Position numbers and translations under genes: made by a program
Notes under the pieces: model-generated
Databases searched by the model: none
What the model was told of the DNA's origin: nothing
The model's input: only the letters and a program-made list of their open reading frames with translations
Shown here: positions 1,741 through 38,027 of the stretch, one piece after another
How the letters are laid out: each line of letters starts with the position of its first letter
Numbering within the stretch: the stretch's first letter is position 1
Assembly: GCA_022574255.1 (NCBI GenBank)
Contig: JACZSK010000016.1
Location: 1 to 38,027 of the forward strand
Reading direction: 5' to 3'
From: Pseudomonadota bacterium
GTDB lineage: Bacteria; Pseudomonadota; Alphaproteobacteria; Sphingomonadales; SMXR01
Length of the DNA stretch: 38,027 bases

Positions 1741-3945
1741 ATGAACAACCCTATATTGGTGGGCGTTTCCGCCCTTTTGATTTCCATGACATCTGCTTGC
1801 GACACCGCACCGACGCCGGATAACGGCGCCGGGACAGACACAGAAACAACTGCTGAAACCGCGGCCATGAATGAAACACCGACCGAGACCGCAAACCCGC
1901 TGCTGGCAGACTTTGCCGGTCCTTACGGCGGCGTGCCCGCATTCGACAAGATGGACCTGGCGGCGGTGAAGCCGGCGCTTGAAGAGGGCATGGCACTTAC
2001 CCTGACCGAGATAGACGAGATTGCCGGCAACCCCGAGCCGCCCACATTCGAGAACGTGATTGTGGCGATGGAGCGCACCAGCAGCGCCCTGAACAATGCG
2101 TTCGTGTATTGGGGGCTATGGAGCCGCAGTCTCTCGTCGCCGGAATTCCGCGAAATCCAGGGCGAAATGGCGCCGAGACTGTCTGAATTCAATTCGAAAA
2201 TAACCCAGAACGCGGCCCTGTTCGCGCGCGTCCGCGCGGTTTATGAGGGCGACGAGATGGCGATGCTGCGCCCCGACCAACAGCGCCTGGTGGGGTTGGT
2301 CTATGACGGCTTTGCCCGCAATGGCGCGACCCTGGAGGGCGACGCCAAGGCGCGCTATGCGGAAATAAACCAGCGTCTGGCGGCACTGCATACCGACTTC
2401 GGCAACAATGTGCTGGCCGACGAAGAAGGCTACGTTACCTACATTACCCGGGATCAACTGGACGGACTGCCGGCCTCCTTCGTTCAGGCCGCTGCCGCCG
2501 CGGCTAAAGAGCGCGATCACGAAGGCGAATATGCCATCACCAACACCCGCTCATCGATGGCGCCTTTTCTTACCTATTCCACCGAGCGCGACCTGCGTGA
2601 GGCGGTCTGGCGTACTTATTACAATCGCGGCGACAACGGCGACGAGCATGACAATAACGCCATCGTCGCGGAAATCCTGAACCTGCGCAACGAGCGTGTG
2701 CAACTGCTTGGGTATGATAATTATGCCGCGTGGCGGCTGGAAAACCGCATGGCGAGAACGCCGGCGCGTGCCTACGGGCTTATGCAAGCCGTGTGGCCGG
2801 CGGCGCTGGCCCGCGTGAAGGAAGAAGTGGCCGACATGCAGGCCATTGCCGACGCTGGGGACGCAAGTATCACCATCGCGCCGTGGGATTACCGCCATTA
2901 CGCCGAGAAAGTCCGCCAAGCGAAATATGATCTCGATTCCGACGAGGTGAAGCAATATCTGCAACTCGACAAGCTGCGCGAGGCGATGTTCTTCGTCGCC
3001 GGCGAATTATTCGGTTTCGACTTCGCGCCGGTGCCGGAAGGCGCGGTGAGCGTATTTCACCCCGACGTAAAAGTCTGGGAAGTCACCGACCGGGCGTCAG
3101 GCGATCATATCGGCCTGTGGTATCTGGACCCCTACGCCCGCAAGGGCAAACGGTCCGGCGCCTGGGCGGTCAGCTATCGCAGCCATGAAACCTATGACGG
3201 AAAGCAGACTGTTCTCTCGTCCAACAATTCGAACTTTATCAAGCCGGCGCCGGGCGAAGCCGTGCTCATTTCATGGGACGACGCCAGCACTTTTTTCCAT
3301 GAGTTCGGCCATGCCCTGCATGCGCTGTCCTCCAACGTCGCCTATCCAACCCTGAATGGCGGCGTCCGCGACTATACCGAGTTCCAGTCGCAGTTGCTGG
3401 AGCACTGGCTGTCAACCGACGCGGTCATCAACCAGTTCCTGGTGCATCACGAAACGGGCGAACCCATGCCCGCCGCACTGGTCGCCAAGATCAAGAAAGC
3501 CGCGACCTTCAACCAGGGCTTCTCGACCACCGAGTATCTGGCCTCGGCGCTGATGGACATGGCCTATCACACCATGGACCCGGCGGGCCTGGACATCGAC
3601 GCCTTCGAGCGCGCCAAGCTGGCCGAGCTGAACATGCCGGATGAAATTCCCATGCGCCACCGCACGCCCCACTTCGGCCATGCCTTTTCGGGCGAGGGAT
3701 ATTCGGCGGGATATTACAGCTATATGTGGGCCGACGTGCTGACCGCCGATGCGGCGGAAGCCTTCGCAGCAGCGCCCGGCGGATTCTACGATAAGGAACT
3801 GGCGGCGAAGCTGGTCAAGCATCTGTTCGCGCCGAGAAACTCGGTCGACCCGGCGGAAGCCTACCGCGCCTTCAGGGGCCGCGACGCCGATATCAGCGCG
3901 CTCCTTCGCGATCGGGGTTTTCCGGTTCCGGACGCAACCGAATAG
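1741..3945 (+). CDS. dcp: M3-family peptidyl-dipeptidase, predicted lipoprotein
   Basis: 734 aa zinc metallopeptidase of the M3 (thimet/Dcp) family, which cleaves dipeptides from the C terminus of oligopeptides. The zinc motif HEFGHALH is clear at roughly residues 520-527, with the downstream glutamate helix expected about 25 residues later. The start at 1741 is chosen over an upstream in-frame ATG at 1645 because it gives a lipoprotein signal (LLISMTSAC, lipobox Cys at about residue 20) and has AAGG just upstream. A low-complexity Thr/Glu/Ala linker follows the Cys, typical of an exported tethered protein. E. coli Dcp (about 680 aa) is not a lipoprotein, so this one probably acts in the periplasm. 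Monocistronic as far as can be seen. Confidence 0.92.
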   Translation: MNNPILVGVSALLISMTSACDTAPTPDNGAGTDTETTAETAAMNETPTETANPLLADFAGPYGGVPAFDKMDLAAVKPALEEGMALTLTEIDEIAGNPEPPTFENVIVAMERTSSALNNAFVYWGLWSRSLSSPEFREIQGEMAPRLSEFNSKITQNAALFARVRAVYEGDEMAMLRPDQQRLVGLVYDGFARNGATLEGDAKARYAEINQRLAALHTDFGNNVLADEEGYVTYITRDQLDGLPASFVQAAAAAAKERDHEGEYAITNTRSSMAPFLTYSTERDLREAVWRTYYNRGDNGDEHDNNAIVAEILNLRNERVQLLGYDNYAAWRLENRMARTPARAYGLMQAVWPAALARVKEEVADMQAIADAGDASITIAPWDYRHYAEKVRQAKYDLDSDEVKQYLQLDKLREAMFFVAGELFGFDFAPVPEGAVSVFHPDVKVWEVTDRASGDHIGLWYLDPYARKGKRSGAWAVSYRSHETYDGKQTVLSSNNSNFIKPAPGEAVLISWDDASTFFHEFGHALHALSSNVAYPTLNGGVRDYTEFQSQLLEHWLSTDAVINQFLVHHETGEPMPAALVAKIKKAATFNQGFSTTEYLASALMDMAYHTMDPAGLDIDAFERAKLAELNMPDEIPMRHRTPHFGHAFSGEGYSAGYYSYMWADVLTADAAEAFAAAPGGFYDKELAAKLVKHLFAPRNSVDPAEAYRAFRGRDADISALLRDRGFPVPDATE

Positions 3946-3959
3946 GCAAAAATATTCTT

Positions 3960-3997
3960 GAGATCGGGGGGCGGGATTTCCCGCTCCCCGGTATCTC
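3960..3997. terminator. Intergenic hairpin between convergent genes
   Basis: An 11-bp stem (3965-3975 with 3980-3990, one G-U pair) closes a 4-base loop, and a further 5-bp stem (3960-3964 with 3993-3997) extends it. Read leftward it is followed about 10 bases later by a T-rich stretch ending in TTTTT, so it best serves the leftward aminotransferase gene, though it lies where both convergent genes end. Confidence 0.55.
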
Positions 3998-4013
3998 CGC
4001 ACTGAACGAAATA

Positions 4014-5258
4014 TCAGGCAATAATACCCTCCAGCGCATCCAGGGCCCGATCAATCTCGGCCTCTGCATTGTAATGGGCAATGCCAATCCTCACGACGCC
4101 CTCATCTTCCGGAATGCCGAGTTGGCGAACTATCTCCGGCGCGTAATTATGTCCGCTCCAAACAAATATATTCCGATCCGCCAGACGCTCGGCAATCTCT
4201 GCAGGCTTTCGTTGATCACAAGTGAAGGCAACCGTGGGAACGCGGTGACCCATCCGGTCGGGATTGGTAATTCCGTGAATGGTTACGCCCGGTATGCTTT
4301 GAAGCCCTGAAATCAATCGTGTAACCAGCAGCGTTTCATGGGCCTGCGCCATCGCAAAACTCGCCGCTATCTGCGCACGCCTGCCACCGCCTTCGCCAGC
4401 CTCGGCGCCCAGCCAGGCAAAATAATCCACCGTTGCCGCAAGTCCCGCCTGCAGTTCAATCTGGGGGGTTCCGGTTTCGAACTTGGTAGGAAGTTCGTCA
4501 GAGACGCAACGACACTGATAGGCATGCAGATCTTGCAGCAATTCCCGCCGACCCCATAGCAGGCCCATGTGGGGTCCGAAAAACTTGTAGGACGAGCAGG
4601 TGAGAAAATCACAGCCCAGATTCTGAACGTCGATCAGCCCGTGCGGGGCAAACTGGACCGCATCCACATAAACCAGGGCCCCCGCCTGTTTAGACCGCTC
4701 GGTCAGCGCCTTTAAATCGTTTATCGAGCCGGTCAGGTTGCTGGCATAATTGAGCGCCACCAAGCGCGTGCGATCGCTCAGCAATTCCTCCAGCGCCGCG
4801 GGCTCCAACTGCCAACTCTCGGGATCGAATCGCAGCCAGCGGATGATGAGCTGTTTTTCCTCCGCCATTTCAAGCCAGGGCGCGATATCACCTTCGTGAT
4901 CCATTCGCGTCAGCACAATTTCATCTCCGGGCGCGAAATCCTTGCAGATGCTGCGCGACAATTGAAAAGTCAGCGATGTCATGTTCGCCCCGATTATGAT
5001 CTCGTCAGCCCCGCTGGCTCCAACAAAATCTGCAGTGGCCTCATGTCCCAGCTGCACTACTTCGCCCGCGCGTTGGCTGCTGGCGAAGAAGCCACCCAGA
5101 TTTGCGTTTGACTGAATCAGGCAAGAGGCGACCGCGTCGGCCACCGTTTGCGGCACCTGAGTGCCGGCGGGGTTGTCCAGGTAAATGCGCGCCTTCCCGG
5201 CGTCTTCAATGGCAAGGGCCGGAAAACGCTCACGCACAAGATCAATTGGGAAAATCAT
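4014..5258 (-). CDS. Cysteine-desulfurase-like class V aminotransferase (VC1184-type)
   Basis: 414 aa PLP enzyme of the class V aminotransferase family. The PLP-binding lysine lies in SSYKFFGPHMG (about residues 222-232). The motif DHEGDIAPW and the YKFFGPH form, instead of the HK motif of IscS/NifS, place it in the VC1184-like 'cysteine desulfurase family' subgroup, whose real substrate is generally not established. A good ribosome site (AAGGAG, 11 bases upstream) supports the ATG at 5258. It lies just beyond the end of the hdrB gene (204-bp gap), so a link to sulfur chemistry is attractive but unproven. Nothing recognisable lies in the 5259-5461 gap. Confidence 0.85.
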   Translation of the reverse strand: MIFPIDLVRERFPALAIEDAGKARIYLDNPAGTQVPQTVADAVASCLIQSNANLGGFFASSQRAGEVVQLGHEATADFVGASGADEIIIGANMTSLTFQLSRSICKDFAPGDEIVLTRMDHEGDIAPWLEMAEEKQLIIRWLRFDPESWQLEPAALEELLSDRTRLVALNYASNLTGSINDLKALTERSKQAGALVYVDAVQFAPHGLIDVQNLGCDFLTCSSYKFFGPHMGLLWGRRELLQDLHAYQCRCVSDELPTKFETGTPQIELQAGLAATVDYFAWLGAEAGEGGGRRAQIAASFAMAQAHETLLVTRLISGLQSIPGVTIHGITNPDRMGHRVPTVAFTCDQRKPAEIAERLADRNIFVWSGHNYAPEIVRQLGIPEDEGVVRIGIAHYNAEAEIDRALDALEGIIA

Positions 5259-5461
5259 CTTTTGTTATCTCCTTGCGCAAGGCAGCATTTGTTGCGCGTC
5301 GCCATCCATGGGAAGTGATTGCGCCGACAGTCCGGATTATTTCTGTGCTCGTCAAGCTGCTTGGCTGGACCGTAAAGCAGCGCCATAGAGTAAGCATCGT
5401 GGCGCATCCGATGCCAGCCTCTTCGTTTGTTCCTGTGGCGTTGAGTTAGTAGGACGCGCCC

Positions 5462-6370
5462 CTATTTCTTGGCCAGCTTTTCCAGCTTTCTGGCGCGGAT
5501 GGTATTGCGCTTGAGGGCCGCGTCCTTGTCGGGGTCCATGCCAAAGGCCACCGCCATCAGCTGGCTGTAGAAAATGACCGGGATGTTGAACTTGGTGCCG
5601 AATTTCTTGTTGATGGCATCCTGATACATCTCGACGTTGGTCTGGCACAGCGGGCAAGGGGTGGTAATCACATCCGCTTCGGCATCCTCGGCGGCCTGCA
5701 GGATATCGCGGATCAGGTGCAGCGTGCGGTCGGGGCTCATCACCGCCACCGAGCCGCCGCAGCAGGAGGTCTTGAGATTGAAATCCACCGCCTCGGCACC
5801 GCAGGCCTCGGTAAAATCATTGAGAAAATCCGGGTCTTCATAGGTGTCGTAATTGCCGCCGCCATCGGTGCTGGAAAAGGGCCGCACCGTCTGGCAACCG
5901 ACGTAACCCGCCACCTTCAGGCCGGTCAGCGGATTGGTGACCTGTTCCCTGATCTTGTCCATCCCCACGTCGTTGACGATCACCTCGCACATATGCCGGA
6001 CCTGCAGGTCGTCGTCATAGGAAAGGTCGGCCGCCGAAAGCGCGTCGTTGACCTGGCGGCGCAGCTTGACGTCGCTCTTGATCTTTTCGTTGCCCGCATG
6101 GGTGTTCAGATAGCAAGCGGCGCAGCCGGTGACCACGTCCTGCTTGCCCTGTTGCTGGGCCTTGGCCAGATTGCGCCCGGTCAGCGCCGTGTTGGGCAGC
6201 GACCCGCCGCCAATATGGCCCACCGAGGCGCCGCAGCAGTTCCAGTCGTCCAGCTCTTCAAGCTCGATGCCGATTTTGGGCGCGATGGCGCGCAAGCTCT
6301 CGTCCAGATGTTTGGCGCTGCCCTGCGAAGAACAGCCCGGGTAATAGCTGAATTTCATTTTAGAGCTCAT
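5462..6370 (-). CDS. hdrB: Heterodisulfide reductase subunit B-like protein (QmoC-replacing)
   Basis: 302 aa, two CCG domains. The first has GCSS near the N terminus, NCCGAS about 37 residues later, then CAAC; the second has GYVGC, SCCGGS and CPLC. These bind the unusual non-cubane [4Fe-4S] clusters of HdrB. It is the last gene of qmoA-qmoB-hdrC-hdrB and overlaps hdrC by 11 bases. The ATG at 6370 has GAGG 6 bases upstream; an internal ATG at 6358 is the alternative. In many organisms Qmo ends with the membrane protein QmoC; some lineages (Gram-positive sulfate reducers, some sulfur oxidisers) instead carry soluble HdrC and HdrB, as here. No membrane segment is seen. Confidence 0.9.
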   Translation of the reverse strand: MSSKMKFSYYPGCSSQGSAKHLDESLRAIAPKIGIELEELDDWNCCGASVGHIGGGSLPNTALTGRNLAKAQQQGKQDVVTGCAACYLNTHAGNEKIKSDVKLRRQVNDALSAADLSYDDDLQVRHMCEVIVNDVGMDKIREQVTNPLTGLKVAGYVGCQTVRPFSSTDGGGNYDTYEDPDFLNDFTEACGAEAVDFNLKTSCCGGSVAVMSPDRTLHLIRDILQAAEDAEADVITTPCPLCQTNVEMYQDAINKKFGTKFNIPVIFYSQLMAVAFGMDPDKDAALKRNTIRARKLEKLAKK

Positions 6371-6977: not shown

Positions 6978-9308
6978 CTAAAATCCCTTGAAGGGGTTGT
7001 AGCCGATCGCCTTGATCTCGTCGGCATAGTCATTGAGCAGGGCGGTGACGCGCGCCGAGTCGGCGATTGAGACCTCCTCGGTCCTCACCCTTTCCTTCTC
7101 CAGCATCATGCTCTCCAGCGTCGCGCCGACGCTTTCCATGCGCTCCTGGGCAATGGCGCTGCCCTTGACGAAATGGCACTGGTAGTCGTCGCCCGACTTG
7201 CAGCCGAGCAGCATGATGCCGTCATAGCCGGATTCGAGCGCCGTGGAGACCCATGTGGCGCTGACCGAACCCAGACAGCGCACCGGCAATATCCGCACAT
7301 AGGGGGTCAGCTGGTGGCGGTTGATCCCCGCCATGTCCAGCGCCGGATAGGCGTCGTTCTCACAGGCGAAGACAAGAATACGTGGCTTCTCAGCGAACTC
7401 GTCGGGCACGTCCACCGCCTTGATCATGTCGGTGATCATCGAAATATTGTAGTTCTTGAAATTGATGGTGCGCACCGGGCAGGCCCCCATGCAGGTGCCG
7501 CAGCGGCGGCAGCGCGTCGGGTTCAGCACCGGGTAGCCGTCTTCCATCTCATCGATGGCGCCGAACGGGCACTCCACCGTGCAGCGCCGGCATTTGGTGC
7601 AGATATCCAGCCCGAATTCGGGATAGGACAGATCACCAACACGGGGATGCACGGACACCGCCTTGTCGGCGGCGCGCATCGCCTGAAAGGCTTTGAGCAC
7701 AGCGCCCTGCGCGTCTTGCCGCGCCTCGGCGACCGACATTGCCCGGCGCACCGGCCCGCAGGTGTATATGCCCGTGCGCCGCGTCTCGTAGGGGAAACAG
7801 ATGAAGTGCGAATCCGCATAGCCATTGGCCAGCACCGGCAGATGCGGCCCCTGGCGGTATTGCAGGTTCAAAATCGGCCCGCCCGGCATGGCAGCCTCGC
7901 CATTTGCGCCGTCTTGGTCAGCCTCTTCCGAAGTGTCGGGCGCGGGGGCCTCTTCGGCTTTCTCTTCACCATCCCCGGCCTTCGCCGCGGCAAGCAGCGC
8001 CGCCAGCGGATTAACGTCATCCACCAGTTGATCGGCGCCCTTCGCGGCGGGCTCAAGGTCGACATTCGTGGAATTCGGCACCATGCCGGTGGACAGCACC
8101 ACCATGTCAAAGCCGGACATGGGCACGTCTTCGCCGATCAGCCTGTCTTCCAGCGTGATCGTCAGGTCGGCGCCCACCGACTTGACGACGCCATTCTGGA
8201 AGATGATGCCCGCCTCCTGGGCCTGGCGGTAAAACTCTTCCGCCATGCCGTGGGCACGCAAATCCTCGTGCATCACATAAATCATGGCCTCGGGCACAGC
8301 TTCCAGAAGCTGCAATGCCTGCTTGATGACAATGCGGTCGCTGAGGCCCGACGAATAGGGCATGCGGTCGCTGTCGCCGGAAATTATGAAGGCCACAGTG
8401 TTCAGCGCGTCGCCATTCGACTTGCGCTTCATCTCGCCGCTGGAGAGAATCTCTTCAAACTCGATATCGCTGACCACGTCGGGTGAGGCGCCATAGCCCA
8501 GGCCTTCCAGCAGCGAAGGGTCGTAGGGGCGCCAGCCGGTTGCAACTACAATGGCGCCAACGCTTTGCGACTGGTTCTTGCCGTTTTGGGTGAGCGTTAC
8601 GTCAAAGGCGCCGGGGCCGCCCGCCGTGCTGGTGACCAGGGTATTGGTCATGACGGTGATCGCCTTGTCGCCCTCAACAGCTGCGATCAGGTCGGCAATA
8701 TCGTTGGGCTGGGGGTCGCGGTAAGGCGGGCGCTCGGGCAGCAGCCTGCTCCATTTCCGCGTCCAGCCGCCGAGCGTATCGGTTTTCTCGACCAGGATCA
8801 CCTCGGCGCCGGTATGTGCGGCTTCCAGCGCCGCGGTCAGGCCGGTTACGCCGCCGCCGACCACCAGCAGCAGCGCGCCGGCGACTTCGGCCTCGGCATG
8901 GGGCTCGGGGGGCGAGAACTGCCCTGCCTGGGCCACCGCGATACGCAACTGGTCGGCGGCCAGCATGTTGGTGTCTTCCTCGCCGGGGGGGTGGCTCCAG
9001 ATCACTTGTTCGCGCATATTGGCGCGAATGATCTGGGCGCCGGGGAAGTTGAACCGGTCGGTCATCACGCGCGGCGAGCAGGCGGCGATAAGCACCTGGT
9101 TCACGTCGCCGTTTTTTACGTCCGCGGCAATCTCGGCGACGCCTTCGGCGCTGCAATAGGCGGCATGGCGCTTGCAGTGCGGCGTCTTCAGGTCGCCCGT
9201 AGCTAAAGCTTCCAGCGCGTCCACGTCAATGGCGTCAGCGATGCCGCAGCCCTCGCAGAGGTAAATGCCGGATTTCTTTTCAATCACCATGGTTCCACCG
9301 TCCGGCAT
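6978..9308 (-). CDS. qmoB: Quinone-interacting oxidoreductase subunit B (HdrA-like plus MvhD domain)
   Basis: 776 aa. N-terminal HdrA-type region (Cys-containing start LCEGCG, then HCKRHAAYC and ACSPR motifs), FAD-binding motif VVGGGVTGLTAALEA at about residue 155, two ferredoxin motifs (CTKCRRCTVECP and CRRCGTCMGACP, about residues 565-620), and a C-terminal MvhD/FlpD-like domain (ILVFACEND through PVRCLGS and LLGCKSGDDYQC). This order is that of QmoB. A Glu/Ala-rich acidic insertion at about residues 450-485 interrupts the flavin part and looks like a flexible loop. The start at 9308 lies 3 bases after qmoA; an in-frame ATG at 9290 is possible. Expected role: electron transfer between AprBA and the quinone pool or another acceptor, at the cytoplasmic side of the membrane. 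Confidence 0.9.
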   Translation of the reverse strand: MPDGGTMVIEKKSGIYLCEGCGIADAIDVDALEALATGDLKTPHCKRHAAYCSAEGVAEIAADVKNGDVNQVLIAACSPRVMTDRFNFPGAQIIRANMREQVIWSHPPGEEDTNMLAADQLRIAVAQAGQFSPPEPHAEAEVAGALLLVVGGGVTGLTAALEAAHTGAEVILVEKTDTLGGWTRKWSRLLPERPPYRDPQPNDIADLIAAVEGDKAITVMTNTLVTSTAGGPGAFDVTLTQNGKNQSQSVGAIVVATGWRPYDPSLLEGLGYGASPDVVSDIEFEEILSSGEMKRKSNGDALNTVAFIISGDSDRMPYSSGLSDRIVIKQALQLLEAVPEAMIYVMHEDLRAHGMAEEFYRQAQEAGIIFQNGVVKSVGADLTITLEDRLIGEDVPMSGFDMVVLSTGMVPNSTNVDLEPAAKGADQLVDDVNPLAALLAAAKAGDGEEKAEEAPAPDTSEEADQDGANGEAAMPGGPILNLQYRQGPHLPVLANGYADSHFICFPYETRRTGIYTCGPVRRAMSVAEARQDAQGAVLKAFQAMRAADKAVSVHPRVGDLSYPEFGLDICTKCRRCTVECPFGAIDEMEDGYPVLNPTRCRRCGTCMGACPVRTINFKNYNISMITDMIKAVDVPDEFAEKPRILVFACENDAYPALDMAGINRHQLTPYVRILPVRCLGSVSATWVSTALESGYDGIMLLGCKSGDDYQCHFVKGSAIAQERMESVGATLESMMLEKERVRTEEVSIADSARVTALLNDYADEIKAIGYNPFKGF

Positions 9309-9311
9309 CGC

Positions 9312-10583
9312 TCAACCCGCCCTTACTGCTTGAATGGCCTTCAGCGCCGCGGCGGTTGCCGATTGCGTGGACAGCGCCACGTCGAATGGCCCGCCGGCCA
9401 CGCCTGCCGAAAATTGCCCGCCGTCATTTCCTACGGCGGGAATGAGAAAGCCATGCTCGTCCTGCTCCACATCAACCGGCTGGTCAGCGCCCGGCGCCCG
9501 GCTGGGCTCCATTCCCGTGGCCAGCACCACCAGGTCATAGGGTCTTTGGTATATTTCGCGTTCGATGATCTGCTCGCCACAGACCAGGGGCCGGCCATCC
9601 TCGCCGACCACAATATGACCGGGCTTTGATTTGATGAAATTGATGCCCGGATCATTTCGCACGCGCTCGTAAAAGGATGACATTTTGTCGTGGGCGCGGA
9701 TGTCGATGTAATAGATATCGACTTCGGCATCCGGGTATTGCTCGCGCACATAGGCGGCGTGTTTCAGCGAGGCCAGGCAGCAAATCATTGAGCAATAGGG
9801 CAGATGATTGACGTCGCGGGAGCCCGCGCACTGGATCATCGCCACCCTCTTGGCCGGCTCGCCGTCCGATGGCCGGATGATCTTGCCATCGGTGGGGCCA
9901 TCGTGTGCCGCCAGCCGCTCCATCTCAACATTGGTGATGATATCGGGGCTGGAATCGTAGCCGTATACATCCAGCTTCGAGGCATCATAGGGCCGCCAGC
10001 CCGTGGCCCAGATGATGGCGCCGGCATTCAGATCAAAGGTCTCTTCCTGCTGGTCCAGTTCAACCGCGTTATATTTGCAGGATTCTTTTATCTTGTCGGC
10101 CTCGGGCGTGCCGATCACTTCGGGGGAGATGATATAACGCATGGGAAAAGCATGCTCGTGAGGCAGGTAAGCCACCTTCACCTTGTCCATCCCGTAATTG
10201 AAGGAATTGTCGATCTCGGTCTCCGCTGCTTGAGCGCAGGCCCCGCAGGCGGTGCAGTTGGCATTTACAAAACGCGGCGTTTTCCTGACGGTCAGCAGGT
10301 AGTCGCCGCGCACGCCCGTGACCCCCTGCACTTCCGACATGGTCATCAGCTTGATGCGCGGGTTTTTCTTGATCCGCTGATAATTGATTTCCAGCCCGCA
10401 GGTGGGGTGGCAAAGCTTGGGGAAATAGCGGTTCAGACGCGTCACGCGACCGCCCAGCGACGGCCCCTTTTCCAGCAGCACCACGTCATAACCCATTTCG
10501 GCGGCTTCCAGCGCTGCGGTGATGCCCGCGATGCCGCCGCCGACGACCGCTATGGTCTGGCTTTTGGGTGCCCCGTCCGTCAT
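9312..10583 (-). CDS. qmoA: Quinone-interacting oxidoreductase subunit A (HdrA-like)
   Basis: 423 aa flavoprotein: FAD motif AVVGGGIAGITAALEAAE near the N terminus, CHPTCGLEIN, a partial ferredoxin motif CTACGAC, CAGSRD, the cysteine-rich PYCSMICCLASLKHA, and a final ATGMEPSR flavin-contact segment. This fits QmoA, the HdrA paralogue without extra ferredoxin domains. The ATG at 10583 begins where family similarity begins; a longer open frame to 10922 runs antisense into sat and is not credible. First gene of the leftward operon, with 187 bp to the divergent sat start. Confidence 0.92.
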   Translation of the reverse strand: MTDGAPKSQTIAVVGGGIAGITAALEAAEMGYDVVLLEKGPSLGGRVTRLNRYFPKLCHPTCGLEINYQRIKKNPRIKLMTMSEVQGVTGVRGDYLLTVRKTPRFVNANCTACGACAQAAETEIDNSFNYGMDKVKVAYLPHEHAFPMRYIISPEVIGTPEADKIKESCKYNAVELDQQEETFDLNAGAIIWATGWRPYDASKLDVYGYDSSPDIITNVEMERLAAHDGPTDGKIIRPSDGEPAKRVAMIQCAGSRDVNHLPYCSMICCLASLKHAAYVREQYPDAEVDIYYIDIRAHDKMSSFYERVRNDPGINFIKSKPGHIVVGEDGRPLVCGEQIIEREIYQRPYDLVVLATGMEPSRAPGADQPVDVEQDEHGFLIPAVGNDGGQFSAGVAGGPFDVALSTQSATAAALKAIQAVRAG

Positions 10584-10770
10584 ATAGCCGGTTCCATCCT
10601 TGATCGAATCCCTTATATATATCCGTACCTTCGCCCGTCGAGAAGTCCGTATATCAGTTTTTTCGAATATAAACTGTCCTGTTTCAGAGCGGACTCGCCG
10701 AAAGGGCGATGTGGCGGGAGCGGTAAACCGGTCGTACGCCGGTAAAGTAGTCAAAAACAAAGGGAAAATA
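10584..10770. promoter_or_regulatory. Divergent control region between qmoA and sat
   Basis: 187 bp with two AT-rich patches (around 10609-10622 and 10650-10672) in otherwise GC-rich DNA, which is where promoters for both directions are expected. A small hairpin (TCGCC-GAAA-GGGCGA) lies near 10692-10706. I cannot assign confident -35/-10 boxes or an operator. AGGG at about 10761-10764 is the likely sat ribosome site. Confidence 0.4.
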
Positions 10771-11949
10771 ATGTCGAATCTGGTTCCGCCACACGGTTGC
10801 GAAAGCCTTATGCTGCGGCTGTTGCCCGAGACGGAGCGCGCCGACGCTCTCAACCATGCCAAAACGCTGAAGCGGGTGCCCATGACCAGCCGCGAGGTAT
10901 CCGATTTGCTGATGCTGGGCATGGGAGCCTACACGCCGCTTGAGGGCTTCATGGGCGAAGCCGACTGGCGCGGCGTCTGCACGGCCATGGAGCTTTCGTC
11001 CGGCGTCTTCTGGCCCATTCCCATCACGCTCTCCGCCGGACAGGCGTTGGCTGATACCATTGGCATCGGCGAGGAGGTAGCGCTGGTCGATGCCGCGAAC
11101 GACGAAATTCTCGGCGTGCTGACGGTTACCGGGAAATACGGGATCGACAAGGAGCTGGAATGTTCCAGCGTTTATCGCACCACCGACCCGCAGCATCCCG
11201 GCGTCGCCAAGGTTTTGGCGCAGGAAGAAGTAAATCTTTCCGGGCCGGTAGCGGTATTGTCGGAAAGCCATTTCCCCGAGACCTATGCGGAGCTTTATTT
11301 CCGCCCCGAAGAGACCCGCGCCATGTTCGCCGAAAAGGGCTGGTCGACAGTGGCCGCCTTCCAGACCCGCAACCCCATGCATCGCAGCCATGAATACCTG
11401 GCGAAAATTGCCGTCGAAATATGCGACGGACTTTTCATTCACCAGGTGCTGGGCGCCCTGAAGCCGGGCGATATTCCCGCCGATGTGCGCACCGCCGCAA
11501 TCAGCGCCCTGGTTGATAATTATTTCGTGCCGGGGACTGTCATACAGGCCGGCTACCCCATTGAAATGCGCTATGCCGGCCCCCGCGAAGCGTTGCTGCA
11601 TGCGGTGCTGAGGCAAAATTTCGGCTGCTCGCATTTGATTGTCGGGCGCGACCACGCCGGGGTTGGCGATTATTACGGCCCCTTTGACGCTCACCATATT
11701 TTCGACGAAGTACCCGAGAGCAAACTGCGCACAAGGCCGCTGAAGATCGACATTACCTTCTATTGCTATAAATGTGATGGCATGGCGACCGGCCGCACCT
11801 GCCCCCACGGCGAAACCGACCGGCTGCATGTCTCGGGCACGGGCTTGCGAAAAATGTTCGCCGACAAGGAAGCCGTCCCCCCCGAGTTCAGCCGCCCCGA
11901 GGTGCTGGAGGTGCTGCAGGCCTATTACGATAGTTTGCCGGAGGATTAG
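10771..11949 (+). CDS. sat: Dissimilatory-type ATP sulfurylase
   Basis: 392 aa homodimeric-type sulfate adenylyltransferase, which interconverts ATP + sulfate with APS + pyrophosphate. Active-site motifs are intact: [11 protein letters not shown] (about residues 196-206) and [13 protein letters not shown] (about 290-302). The C-terminal C-x-x-C...C-x3-H pattern ([15 protein letters not shown]) is the zinc-site pattern of the dissimilatory Sat family, unlike assimilatory CysDN. Next to aprBA and qmo, it probably makes ATP from APS during sulfur oxidation; the reverse (sulfate reduction) direction cannot be excluded from this window. The TAG stop is formed at the border of the inserted element at 11949. 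Confidence 0.96.
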
Positions 11950-12215
11950 GGTCTGGACTCAATTACCGGTGAGGGCTGTGCCGCAGCCAAAATTGGCCGG
12001 AACAAGGAGAAAGCGGTGAAGAATAGTGATCTATCTGAAACGATTTTGACGCTGTTCCGGTCGATTTTGGCGCGGTCCGGAACGGATTGGCCCGAAAGGC
12101 CCGGGCAAAGGCGTCGAATATCCTCGCCGATACCCCGGCATCGCCTGCGGTATTCTCCTGTTTTCCGGGCCTTTCGGAGCCAACACAGCTCCACCCGGTA
12201 ATTGGGTTCAGACCC
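11949..12215. mobile_element. MITE-like element with long inverted ends and TA duplication
   Basis: 267 bp. The two ends are imperfect inverted repeats over about 60 bases: both start GGGTCTG, share CAATTACCGG and GCTGTG, and stay similar to about position 66. The dinucleotide TA flanks both sides (11947-11948 and 12216-12217), as expected of a 2-bp target duplication. A further internal foldback pairs the region near 12087-12105 with 12160-12178 (CCGAAAGGCCCGG facing CCGGGCCTTTCGG). It encodes no credible protein, so it would depend on a transposase elsewhere. The TA is also part of the sat TAG stop codon; the right end lies just before the ribosome site of the ankyrin gene. Confidence 0.8.
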
Positions 12216-12234
12216 TAGAGGAGGCTTTGGAACC

Positions 12235-24718: not shown

Positions 24719-24768
24719 CATCAAAAAACTTGCGGAGATGCACAGCGTGCGACAAAGTTTGTCGCCAC

Positions 24769-24890
24769 CTCATCTGTCAGTGGGCGTAAACGCCCCCGCA
24801 GGAATTGGCACCGTAACAAATAATCGCGTTGCGATTACCTGCAGGTTGCCCCGGCTTCTAAGGGCCTGTCCCTCAGCCGGTCTTGATGAG
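24769..24890 (-). promoter_or_regulatory. SAM-I (S-box) riboswitch aptamer
   Basis: The 122-nt leftward segment has the S-box core in order: P1 5' strand CTCATCAAGA, the GAGGGACAGGCCC block, GAAGCCGGGGCAACC, GGTGCCAATTCCTGC, and P1 3' strand GATGAG, with the expected variable helices between (for example GGGGGCGTTTACGCCC-type P4). Binding of S-adenosylmethionine should stabilise P1 and let the terminator at 24694-24718 form, shutting off metX-metB. A hairpin GCGACAAA-C-TTTGTCGC (24765-24749) separates aptamer and terminator. Confidence 0.95.
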
Positions 24891-24897
24891 TGATTTC

Positions 24898-33828: not shown

Positions 33829-34412
33829 CCGGGAAAACGAAGGGCTTTGAATGTACCCGCGCGACCATGGTGGTGTTGACCCAGAACAATATTGATACCG
33901 ACCAGATTATTCCCGCCCGGTACCTGACAACCACCGTACGCGAGGGGATGGGTGAGTTGTTGTTTTATGACTGGCGACGCGACGGCGAGGGGAATTTGCG
34001 CGATGACTGCCCGCTGAACACACCCGAGGCGGCGCGCGCCGGCGTATTAGTGGCGGGCAGCAATTTCGGGTGCGGATCAAGCCGCGAACATGCGCCGTGG
34101 GCGCTCGGTGATTTCGGATTCAAGGCCATTCTGAGCACTGATTTCGCCGATATTTTTCGCGCCAACTGCCTGAAAAACGGGCTGCTGCCGGTGGCCATAA
34201 GCGCTGAAGTCTATGAGTGCCTGGTGGCCAATCCAGACGCCCGCATCACCATCGATCTGGAGAAACAGGAACTGCGCTATGGCAATGATGGCATGTGCGC
34301 GTTCAAAATCGATTCCTTTTCCCGCCAGTGCATGCTGGAGGGAATTGATGAGCTGGACTTCCTGCTCAGCCACCAGGACGCAATAGACGCCTTTGAGGCC
34401 GGACAGCCGTGA
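33825..34412 (+). CDS. leuD: 3-isopropylmalate dehydratase, small subunit
   Basis: 195 aa. Family motifs [14 protein letters not shown] near the N terminus and [17 protein letters not shown] (about residues 79-95). Standard length. Its ATG is within the leuC stop, and its TGA overlaps the GTG start of leuB, so leuC-D-B are tightly coupled. Forms the swivelling domain of the isomerase. Confidence 0.96.
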
Positions 34413-35467
34413 AGGCAACCATCGCCTACCTGCCCGGCGACGGCATAGGTCCCGAGGTTGGCGGCATGGCCATGGCAATTCTTGACGCCGTGGCGGCGCG
34501 CTTCGGCCACGAGTTCCATATCAACGAATGCCTGGTGGGCGGAGCGGCAATAGATGCTACTGGTGATCCACTGCCCCCGCAGACCAGAAGCACTTGCGAG
34601 GCCGCCGATGCGATCTTTCTCGGCGCCGTCGGCGGGCCAAAGTGGGACGGCGACGGGCCACGGCCCGAGAGCGGCCTGCTGGCGCTGCGCAAGCTGCTGG
34701 GCCTTTACGCCAACATTCGCCCGGTGCGCCCGCATCCCAGGGCCGCCGCCGCATCGCCCATAAAGCCGGAAATCCTCAAGGGCGTGGATATGGTGGTTGT
34801 GCGTGAGCTGACCGGCGGCATTTATTTTGGCAAGAAGAGCCGCGAGACAGACAGCGCCACCGACGTTTGCACCTACACGCGAACAGAGATCGAGCGCGTG
34901 GTGCGCCGCGCCGGGAAGTTGGCTCAAGGCCGACGCGGCAAGATAACCTCCGTGGACAAGGCCAATGTGCTGGAGACCAGCCGGCTGTGGCGCGAGGTGA
35001 CCACCCGGGTGATAACGGAAGAATTTCCGGCGCTGGAACTGGAGCATATTCTGGTCGATGCCGCCGCCATGTATCTGCTGTCACGGCCAGCGGAATTTGA
35101 TGTCATCGTCACCGAGAATATGTTCGGCGATATCCTGACCGACGAAGCCTCGATGCTGGCCGGATCGATGGGGCTCTTGCCTTCCGCTTCGCTGGGCGAC
35201 GGACCACGCGGCCTTTACGAACCGATCCACGGCTCGGCGCCCGATATCGCGGGCAAATCCCTGGCAAACCCGATGGCCTCGATACTCAGTGGGGCAATGC
35301 TCCTCCGACTGTCGCTGGGACTCAATACGGAGGCAGAAGCCATAGAAAACAGTATCGACTCGATACTCTCGGAAGGCTACCGGACCGACGATATCGCATC
35401 GAATGGCGAACGACCGCTCACGACCAGCCAGGTGGGCGACATGATTGCCGGACTGGTCATGGGTTAA
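34409..35467 (+). CDS. leuB: 3-isopropylmalate dehydrogenase
   Basis: 352 aa. GTG start at 34409 in a GTGA overlap with leuD gives the usual N terminus ([17 protein letters not shown]). Substrate and cofactor motifs: [70 protein letters not shown] and [13 protein letters not shown]. Oxidatively decarboxylates 3-isopropylmalate to the keto acid for IlvE. Last gene of the operon; no asd follows, as it does in some relatives. Confidence 0.96.
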
Positions 35468-35502
35468 GACCGGCTTCGGCGCTGCATGCGAAAGCCCCGG
35501 TC
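35468..35502. terminator. Hairpin between convergent leuB and DUF3179 gene
   Basis: GACCGG (35468-35473) pairs with CCGGTC (35497-35502), and an inner CTTCG/CGAAAG stem extends it, starting at the base after the leuB stop. There is no T-run on either side, so it is a weak intrinsic terminator or a 3'-end stabilising hairpin. Confidence 0.4.
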
Positions 35503-36757
35503 AATCCAGTTCGTCGGAACTGTCACCCCATATCGCGGTGTGCGGATTAAAGTCCCGCCACGCCCAGTCGTACGCCGAAACGTACGGTGCGCGCTGCAAC
35601 AACGTCCCTCTGAGCGGGCCATCTGTGGCAATTCCCCTCTCGATATCCCACGTTGAGCCCGTCTCCACGTCTCTGATATCACGTGTGCCGGCCAGTTCGA
35701 CAGAATCGGTTAACTCGAAAGTCAAAACATCCGGCAGATCTCCCGGCCCGCTGAGTCCCCGCCTCGGCGACCTGAGAAAGACGTGTATAACGCGGGTTTC
35801 TTTGTCGGTGAACAGTACGACCGGAAAATCCCCGACCGAGCCGTTGACAACCCCTTCGTTGGCAGCTGAAGCGAAATAAAAGCCGGTCGCGGCCTCGCCG
35901 ATCGAAACGCCGATCACGAACCGGTCAATCGCAATCCGGCCGCGATACTTGAGATCAGCTCGTTCGTCGACGAGCACTTTCGTACCTGGATGCCTATCGA
36001 GCCAGGTGCGCCAGGGAACGAGCTCGTAGGGCAACAGTGTCAGGCGGGTGCCGGTCAACTCGCCACGAACGGCCGCCCCCCAAGGTTGCGACCAGACGCT
36101 CTCGGTCTCCCAGTCCCACCAGGTCATCGCGTTCATAAACAGCAGCCCTTCGTTTCCAAACGTATGGGCCACTCCCTCGATTCGCCGGTCATGCACGAGA
36201 CCGGTGTAGCAAATCGGTCACCAGGTGACCAGCACCGGCGTGCCGCCGACCCTGTCGTTGACCATTTCGCGTATCCGCATCATGCCCACCGGGTAGGCCC
36301 GGGCGTCTCCGTCGATCTCGAGCCCCATGACAAGCTCTTCCGGGTTCAACGCGACTTCGCCCGGAGAGACGAATTTTGGCGAGTAAACAGGATTGATGGC
36401 GTCGCGGGGGATTCTTTCTTCATCGGAAAAAGCAAACCCGCCAAGCGGATTGACCTCGGGTTCGAGTACGCGGAGCTCAGGGTCGGGGTTTATTCGAGCA
36501 AAAGCGGCGACGTCGAATTCCGGAACCTGTAGTACATCCGCCACTTGAGTTGCACCCGTCAGCTGGATTCCATTCGAAATCGGGGCTTCGCCCAATTTCT
36601 GGGTCTCATCGGGCAAATTTGAACCTATTTCTTTGCCGTTCTCCGGCACCGGCAAGTTGGGCGAGCAGGCGGCAACAGCTCCAAAAAGCAGTGTTATCGC
36701 GCCGAGAGTAATCGCCCGGTTGAATAGTGCCGGCCACCGCAGGTTGAGTTCTCCCAT
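35501..36757 (-). CDS. DUF3179-family lipoprotein with in-frame TGA, candidate selenoprotein
   Basis: 418 codons with one internal TGA (36220-36218, codon 180); the frame is otherwise open on both sides. The ATG at 36757 gives a lipoprotein signal (LLFGAVAAC, Cys about residue 31). The downstream half has DUF3179 hallmarks as I know the family: LVHDRR, FGNEGLLF, ETESVWSQPWG and GTRLTLLP. In typical members the TGA position is the first Cys of a (T)W/Y-CPLC motif; here the reading is VTW-TGA-PICYTG, so Sec insertion would give UPIC, a UxxC redox motif. A SECIS-like hairpin follows directly (36178-36216). The enzymatic role of DUF3179 is unknown; the protein would be lipid-anchored outside the cytoplasm. 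Alternatives: a pseudogene by Cys-to-stop mutation, or a sequencing error (TGC/TGT read as TGA). Confidence 0.75.
36178..36216 (-). promoter_or_regulatory. SECIS-like hairpin immediately after the in-frame TGA
   Basis: Starting 2 nt after TGA in the leftward direction: a 5-bp lower stem (CGATT with AATCG), an asymmetric internal loop, a 6-bp upper stem (CCGGTC with GACCGG) and an apical loop UCGUGCAU containing G-U. The apical loop begins 20 nt after the UGA, within the range (about 16-37 nt) described for bacterial SECIS elements. If U and A at the loop ends also pair, the loop becomes CGUGC with G in its first two positions, as the bacterial model asks. Confidence 0.6.
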
Positions 36758-36831
36758 GCTGATTCGATGCGGACGACACAAGATTCGTTGCTATGCCCGG
36801 CAGTTTGCGTGGACAGCGGTCTGCCGTTCCA

Positions 36832-38027
36832 CTAGCCGCCGTCGGGATGCTTCCCCGCGAAATCCTCGGTGGGATCGATTTCATGGGCGGCCAGGAAATC
36901 GGGATCCAGGTTGACGCCCAGCCCCGGTCGGTCGGAGACATAAAGATCACCATCCCGGATGTCGAGCGGGTGGTCGATCATCATGTCGTAGCCCGAAAGG
37001 TCGTAACGTGTGGTCTCCAGTTTGTAGAAGTTGGGCACGCCCATCATTACGTGCGCCCCGGCGATCACGTTGATCGGACCCGATGCGTCGTGCGGCGAGA
37101 TCGGCACGTAGTACGCCTCGGCCATCGAGGCGACTCGTTTGGCCTCGGAGATTCCGCCGACCCAGCAGATGTCGAACATGCAAACGTCCATCGCCCTGCG
37201 ATCGAGCATCTCGCGGAAGTGCCAGCGGGTGGCTACCATCTCGCTTGCAGTGACGGGGTGGTCTACGTGGCGCCGAAAATCGGCCAGGGCGTCGATGTTG
37301 TCCATCCGGACCGGGTCTTCGAACCACATCGGGTTGAACGGGGCGACCTTTCTGGCGATCTGGATTGCTGTCGGCAAGTTCCAGATCGAGTGCATCTCCA
37401 GGGCCACGTCCATCTTGTCACCCACCGCGGCCCGGATTTTCCGGAACGGCTCGGCGCCTTCGTCAAGTTGCTCGGGGGTCAGGTGCTGGCCGTTGTTCTC
37501 TTCTGCGAACTGGTCGAACGGCCAGATCTTCATGGCGGTGATGCCCTCTTCGAGAAGCTCCTCGGCGAGCGCGCCGGCGTCGGTCAGGAAGGCGTGCATG
37601 TCTTCGAGCGGTCCGCCCTGCTCCGGATTCAAATACGCCCGCCGGTTCATTCCGGGGGCGGCGCGGCCGTACGTGTTGCCTGCGCATGTGTTGTAGACGC
37701 GGATGCGATCGCGGGTGAGGCCGCCGAGGACCTGGTACAGCGGTGCGCCTATTCGGCGGGCGTAGAGGTCCCAGAGGGCCATATCGACCGCGGAGAGCGC
37801 CCGCATCTCCGTGCCGCGCGAACGGTTGGTGATTCCGAGCCGGTTGATCTCACGCCAGTGCCGGTCGAGCTTGTTCGGGTCCTTGCCGAGCAGGTAGGAG
37901 GCGATGTCGTTGTGGATGAACGCCTCGACCGACTCGGGTCCGAAGAAGGTCTCGCCGTGTCCGGTGACACCGTCGTCGGACGTTATGTTGACCCATATAA
38001 GCCTCGGATAGAGAGGGTGGATCAGAG
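36832..38027 (-). CDS. Enolase-superfamily enzyme (mandelate racemase/muconate lactonizing type), 5' end missing
   Basis: The frame is open from the right edge to the TAG at 36832, so at least 397 codons are present and the start lies outside the window; the ATG at 37806 is internal (the preceding residues NRSRGTE continue the family pattern). Seen: DDGVTGHGET (N-terminal capping domain), RALSAVDMALWDL, TAMKIWPFD (catalytic-strand Lys), metal ligands in ALEMHSIWN, WFEDPV and TASEMVATR, and SPHDASGP for the C-terminal His. These enzymes abstract a proton alpha to a carboxylate, mostly in sugar-acid dehydration or racemisation; the substrate cannot be named. The 36758-36831 gap before the DUF3179 gene is 74 bp, so the two may be co-transcribed. 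Confidence 0.88.
   Translation of the reverse strand, partial: LIHPLYPRLIWVNITSDDGVTGHGETFFGPESVEAFIHNDIASYLLGKDPNKLDRHWREINRLGITNRSRGTEMRALSAVDMALWDLYARRIGAPLYQVLGGLTRDRIRVYNTCAGNTYGRAAPGMNRRAYLNPEQGGPLEDMHAFLTDAGALAEELLEEGITAMKIWPFDQFAEENNGQHLTPEQLDEGAEPFRKIRAAVGDKMDVALEMHSIWNLPTAIQIARKVAPFNPMWFEDPVRMDNIDALADFRRHVDHPVTASEMVATRWHFREMLDRRAMDVCMFDICWVGGISEAKRVASMAEAYYVPISPHDASGPINVIAGAHVMMGVPNFYKLETTRYDLSGYDMMIDHPLDIRDGDLYVSDRPGLGVNLDPDFLAAHEIDPTEDFAGKHPDGG

Follow-up and report, generated by a model that had tools for sequence, protein, structure and literature searches.

A DUF3179 gene with an in-frame UGA at the contig end

The window, by which we mean the whole 38,027-nucleotide stretch analyzed here (contig C12), belongs to a MAG of 192 contigs and 3.07 Mb that is 94.6% complete (G000, referred to below as the host). 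Its right end carries a leuB gene, a DUF3179 lipoprotein gene and a gene of the mandelate racemase/enolase superfamily (MR), with the following features:

34409..35467, plus strand: mosaic leuB, host-like to about 35.2 kb and Chloroflexota-like from there on
35190..35240: point where host DNA gives way to Chloroflexota-like DNA, at a conserved LeuB block
35501..36757, minus strand: DUF3179 lipoprotein open reading frame of 418 codons with an in-frame UGA, from ATG to TGA (terminal stop TGA at 35501-35503)
36185..36204, minus strand: bSECIS-like hairpin CCGGUC-UCGUGCAU-GACCGG, its loop with an invariant GU; codons 185-191 are synonymously constrained
36209..36211, minus strand: codon of C183, the second UxxC Cys, which does not vary among 25 aligned proteins
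36218..36220, minus strand: in-frame UGA, codon 180, predicted selenocysteine (Sec), the U of UPIC
36665..36667, minus strand: putative lipobox Cys, residue 31, of a predicted lipoprotein signal peptide, as read from the translation
36832..38025, minus strand: MR gene running off the contig end, Chloroflexota-like in sequence and codon usage

Within the 418 codons of the DUF3179 open reading frame there was a single internal stop, the TGA of codon 180 (36220..36218), which gives VTW-U-PIC. The Pfam DUF3179 profile (PF11376) matched on both sides of this codon, in two stretches (197.6 bits, E 4e-58, cut-off 27), and the lipobox LLFGAVAAC was readable in the translation; the coordinates and reading frame that the first-pass annotation had given for the gene were correct. 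A search of the gene's own genome returned an N-terminal half of DUF3179 with one TGA and a C-terminal half with none. We take the product to be an exported lipoprotein with a putative Sec180-x-x-Cys183 redox pair. An AlphaFold model of the protein had a mean pLDDT of 79.9, and a Foldseek search of the PDB with this model gave nothing at E ≤ 0.001, the best match being a Rieske dioxygenase at E 0.05, which we treated as no result; a sequence search of the PDB likewise found no relative.

Conservation of the UGA among Chloroflexota relatives

A contig scan for relatives of the DUF3179 protein yielded 20 loci in named genomes, all of them MAGs of Chloroflexota or its subgroups, with best-segment identities of 42–70% to the window protein. 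At codon 180, where the first-pass annotation had proposed a comparison of homologues, every one of the 20 carried TGA, and the in-frame UGA is thus not a chance occurrence. Across an alignment of 25 proteins, the column holding U or C was invariant, as was the second Cys. Two of the loci contained three tandem DUF3179 genes each (L059 at 1806-5197 and L061 at 2787-6162), a UGA gene and two whose equivalent codon specifies Cys; these Cys paralogues (TWCPIC, SWCPVC) used TGC or TGT at the codon of the UGA. Homologues from the host's own order also had Cys at this redox position, so that the position was kept as either UGA or Cys.

In a phylogenetic tree, the window protein and that of MAG B50T3L14 (L054) grouped together at 100/99 within the Chloroflexota clade, and the window branch was shorter than that of L054 (0.14 and 0.21, respectively), which gives no sign of decay in the window gene. 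Between the window gene and this nearest relative, dN/dS was 0.41 before the UGA and 0.17 after it, demonstrating purifying selection on the part of the gene downstream of the UGA.

These data bear on the possibility that the UGA is an ordinary nonsense mutation, a sequencing error or the mark of a pseudogene. A single third-position change, TGC to TGA, would be enough to create it, and the host has DUF3179 paralogues of the Cys type that are intact and free of stops. Such an origin would nonetheless have to accommodate a UGA common to all 20 relatives, which come from different MAGs, the synonymous sites frozen behind it (see below) and the purifying selection downstream, and we regard it as scarcely credible.

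A constrained hairpin downstream of the UGA

Each of the six pairs of the predicted hairpin was kept in at least 17 of 20 distinct sequences. No pair in these 20 sequences had changed on both sides, and there were no compensatory base changes; in the absence of covariation, it is the synonymous constraint that supports an RNA element. Among 80 conserved degenerate codons, mean codon diversity was 0.20 at the six in 185-191 vs 0.57 elsewhere (P = 3e-5), with GGT, GTG, CAT and CGG chosen in codons 185-191; in the rest of the gene, GGC and CGC are often preferred. Four Cys paralogues had other codons at 185-191 and lacked the bSECIS-like hairpin. The MFE z-score of the hairpin was modest, an alternative pairing was found in three of the relatives (L067, L069 and L070), and one Cys paralogue of L061 also folded well.

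The bacterial SECIS model described in PMC13188914 calls for 16–37 nt between the UGA and the apical loop, a G in the first two loop positions and an MFE of at most −7.5. The window hairpin agreed with it in spacing and in energy (−11.7), while having a G in the first two loop positions requires an inner U-A pair to close the loop. Judged by sequence and predicted folding, the synonymous constraint and the hairpin are compatible with a bacterial SECIS as modeled there.

Selenocysteine machinery in the relatives and in the host

Of the 20 genomes of the Chloroflexota relatives, 16 had SelA (TIGR00474) scoring over the cut-off, with SelA split over two contigs in one of the 16, and one of the remaining four genomes held an N-terminal piece below the cut-off. 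At the selA loci of these genomes we found no tRNA-Sec, and no SelB among the neighboring ORFs tested; in the Chloroflexota loci examined, selA did not lie beside selB or selC. The first-pass annotation had proposed Sec for the first Cys of a CPxC motif, and this proposal is borne out by the UGA in 20 of 20 relatives, the Cys of the tandem paralogues at two loci, the constrained bSECIS-like element and the presence of SelA in most of the relatives' genomes. Since the shared UGA, SelA in 16 of 20 genomes and the synonymous freeze in the hairpin point the same way, the Sec reading is well supported, and the UGA at codon 180 most likely encodes selenocysteine.

The assembly to which the window belongs gave another picture from that of its relatives. 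SelA had no match in G000, and SelB and SelD had matches below the cut-off only, those of SelB being, to judge by their lengths, probably EF-Tu and other translation GTPases. The sole match to tRNA-Sec over the threshold in G000 was a tRNA-Ser. A list of tRNA matches held 44 entries, and at the eight loci matching tRNA-Sec, ARAGORN assigned Ser, Trp, Leu, Tyr and Gly, with no anticodon tca; judged by these eight loci, a suppressor tRNA that reads UGA through a UCA anticodon is improbable. Among 60 genomes of the same order, many of them near 100% complete, none had SelA over the cut-off. The first-pass annotation had held that a genome without this machinery would refute its proposal, and SelA, SelB, SelD and tRNA-Sec were indeed not found in the genome under which the contig is filed. 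As set out below, however, this absence is best explained by a contig end made of foreign Chloroflexota DNA rather than by a mutational UGA.

Could the host itself make Sec, with its sel genes hidden in the ~5% that the MAG lacks and the DUF3179 gene working there? The incomplete assembly in 192 contigs leaves some room for this, but selA, selB, selD and tRNA-Sec would all need to be missing, although selA was not next to selB or selC in the Chloroflexota loci examined, and the same-order genomes speak against it as well. We consider this explanation very improbable.

A change of origin inside leuB

Comparison of LeuB along its length located a switch at about 35.2 kb. Protein identity to a Chloroflexota genome (G061) rose from about 0.5–0.7 before the break to 0.87–1.0 beyond it, and identity to a genome of the host's order (G012) dropped to 0.13–0.5. 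The last 83 codons of leuB were 87% identical in nucleotides to the Chloroflexota locus L175/G061, and the nucleotide match between the window and L175 ran unbroken from 35213 to 36773 at 77%, resuming in the MR gene at 81%. The gene order leuB-DUF3179-MR was common to the window and L175, and MR adjoined DUF3179 in both L054 and L175. Codon usage changed within leuB too, with per-codon values of +0.084 in the 5′ part (LeuC, +0.080) and −0.111 in the 3′ part; among host ORFs, DUF3179 ranked at the 3% quantile and the MR gene at the 1% quantile. The break falls in a homologous conserved block and preserves the LeuB frame. About 1.1 of the 3.07 Mb of G000 contigs was searched for the 3′ end of the host's own leuB, with chance matches only.

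The remainder of the contig and its genome showed other affinities. IF-2 of G000, whose N-terminus has what we take to be an alphaproteobacterial look, was 60–67% identical to that of its own family vs 43–46% to Chloroflexota genomes, and by this comparison the host is not a member of Chloroflexota. ProB, MetY and IlvC of C12 were nearest to the host's family or order, and the tetranucleotide profile of C12 was closer to other G000 contigs (0.63–0.68 against 0.646) than to Chloroflexota loci (0.16–0.55). A MITE-like repeat of about 275–300 bp with inverted ends (TAGGGTCTG...CAGACCCTA) lies at 11944-12218 of the window, and at least four further G000 contigs, among them the one with the IF-2 gene, have copies or part-copies of it that are 82–93% identical. 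Mis-binning of the whole contig was rejected, as composition, the common repeat and most of the genes tested belong to the host. By these sequence comparisons, C12 right of about 35.2 kb (the leuB tail, DUF3179 and MR) is of Chloroflexota-like origin, and the part to the left is that of the host.

Elsewhere in the window, a SAM-I (S-box) riboswitch (24767-24892, minus strand, 79.8 bits) lies directly upstream of genes for a MetX-like alpha/beta hydrolase and a MetY-like Cys/Met PLP enzyme. An HdrA2-like protein at 6978-10922 is divided, naturally or through a frame problem, between two adjacent ORFs, of which 9312-10922 corresponds to the front and 6978-9308 to the rear part of the profile. 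Relatives of the window LeuB were not found at full length in seven genomes of the host's family (G001-G007, one of them 99% complete), and these organisms are possible leucine auxotrophs.

Discussion

The first-pass annotation had presented the gene as a candidate new selenoprotein, and as to its newness this has to be revised. DUF3179 is catalogued as a selenoprotein family with the motif UxxC/T (PMC9312934, PMC13188914), and the former review attributes the DUF3179 selenoproteins to Zhang and Gladyshev 2007 (its reference 63), on the Olavius algarvensis symbiont. At NCBI, WP_338918211.1 from Salinirubellus, for example, is named "DUF3179 domain-containing (seleno)protein", which indicates that NCBI already counts selenoproteins in this family; that protein is haloarchaeal and was 28.6% identical to the window protein over 62% of its length. 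The window gene has the Pfam family and the UxxC pattern of the catalogued selenoproteins, unlike which it is a member of a Chloroflexota clade, and our searches of the two reviews gave no mention of Chloroflexi. DUF3179 proteins of the Cys type, from the host and from its order, share the domain, with CPxC instead of UPxC where the motif was read; they were 27–41% identical, had no internal stops and fell mostly in a separate clade (100/98). From its sequence, the window gene is a further instance of the known DUF3179 UxxC selenoprotein family, although how far the family extends in Chloroflexota, like the tandem Sec and Cys copies, may be less well recorded.

How, then, does such a gene come to lie in a genome of this kind? 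We think it quite probable that a Chloroflexota DUF3179 selenoprotein gene of the known type was brought into the host contig by an assembly join inside leuB. Its owner would be a relative of MAG B50T3L14 within Chloroflexota, and would read the UGA as Sec through SelB and tRNA-Sec, with the downstream hairpin acting as the SECIS. The last ~2.8 kb of C12, from ~35.2 kb on, would have been joined during assembly, in the conserved part of leuB, to a contig of an unrelated bacterium that lacks Sec. A chimeric assembly of this kind explains why the origin switches within a conserved block and why the contig ends 2.8 kb further on, as well as the unchanged codon usage, the lack of decay and the absent Sec machinery, and is the likeliest cause of the foreign contig end, which would make the join artificial. 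It counts against a chimera that no 3′ end of the host's leuB turned up on another contig in the roughly 1.1 Mb searched, and that misassembly is rarer than mis-binning according to the authors of GUNC (PMC8201837).

Alternatively, Chloroflexota DNA carrying the selenoprotein gene could have recombined recently into leuB of the Sec-less host, an event that we consider possible yet unlikely. The UGA would then be a plain stop in the host and the gene a stranded, non-functional passenger yielding a 179-residue stub. Horizontal transfer agrees with the host DNA left of 35.2 kb, with an in-frame break placed within a conserved, homologous stretch of LeuB, with the lack of SelA in the host and of any SelA over the cut-off in 60 same-order genomes, and with the failure to find a full LeuB in G001-G007, since leucine genes could accordingly have been gained. 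On the other hand, the foreign segment still has Chloroflexota codon usage, stands at a contig end and is undecayed, and the transfer must have been very recent and across phyla, leaving a mosaic LeuB. Transfer thus accounts for the same facts as a chimera, but with more coincidences than an assembly join requires. That a selenoprotein gene moved across phyla into a Sec-incapable host through recombination in leuB, and is either seen prior to its decay or read through by other means, is to our minds rather doubtful; if true, the locus would capture in nature a selenoprotein gene left stranded.

If the contig end does stem from an assembly join, as we favor, the locus illustrates that a foreign contig end fused to the host's DNA can account for a UGA-containing gene in a genome lacking Sec machinery, and checks of origin at the contig level should precede claims of new recoding. 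For the family itself, Chloroflexota would add a broad branch to a little-noted group of selenoproteins of unknown function, and the occurrence of Sec and Cys copies together in single genomes would aid tests of why Sec is kept.
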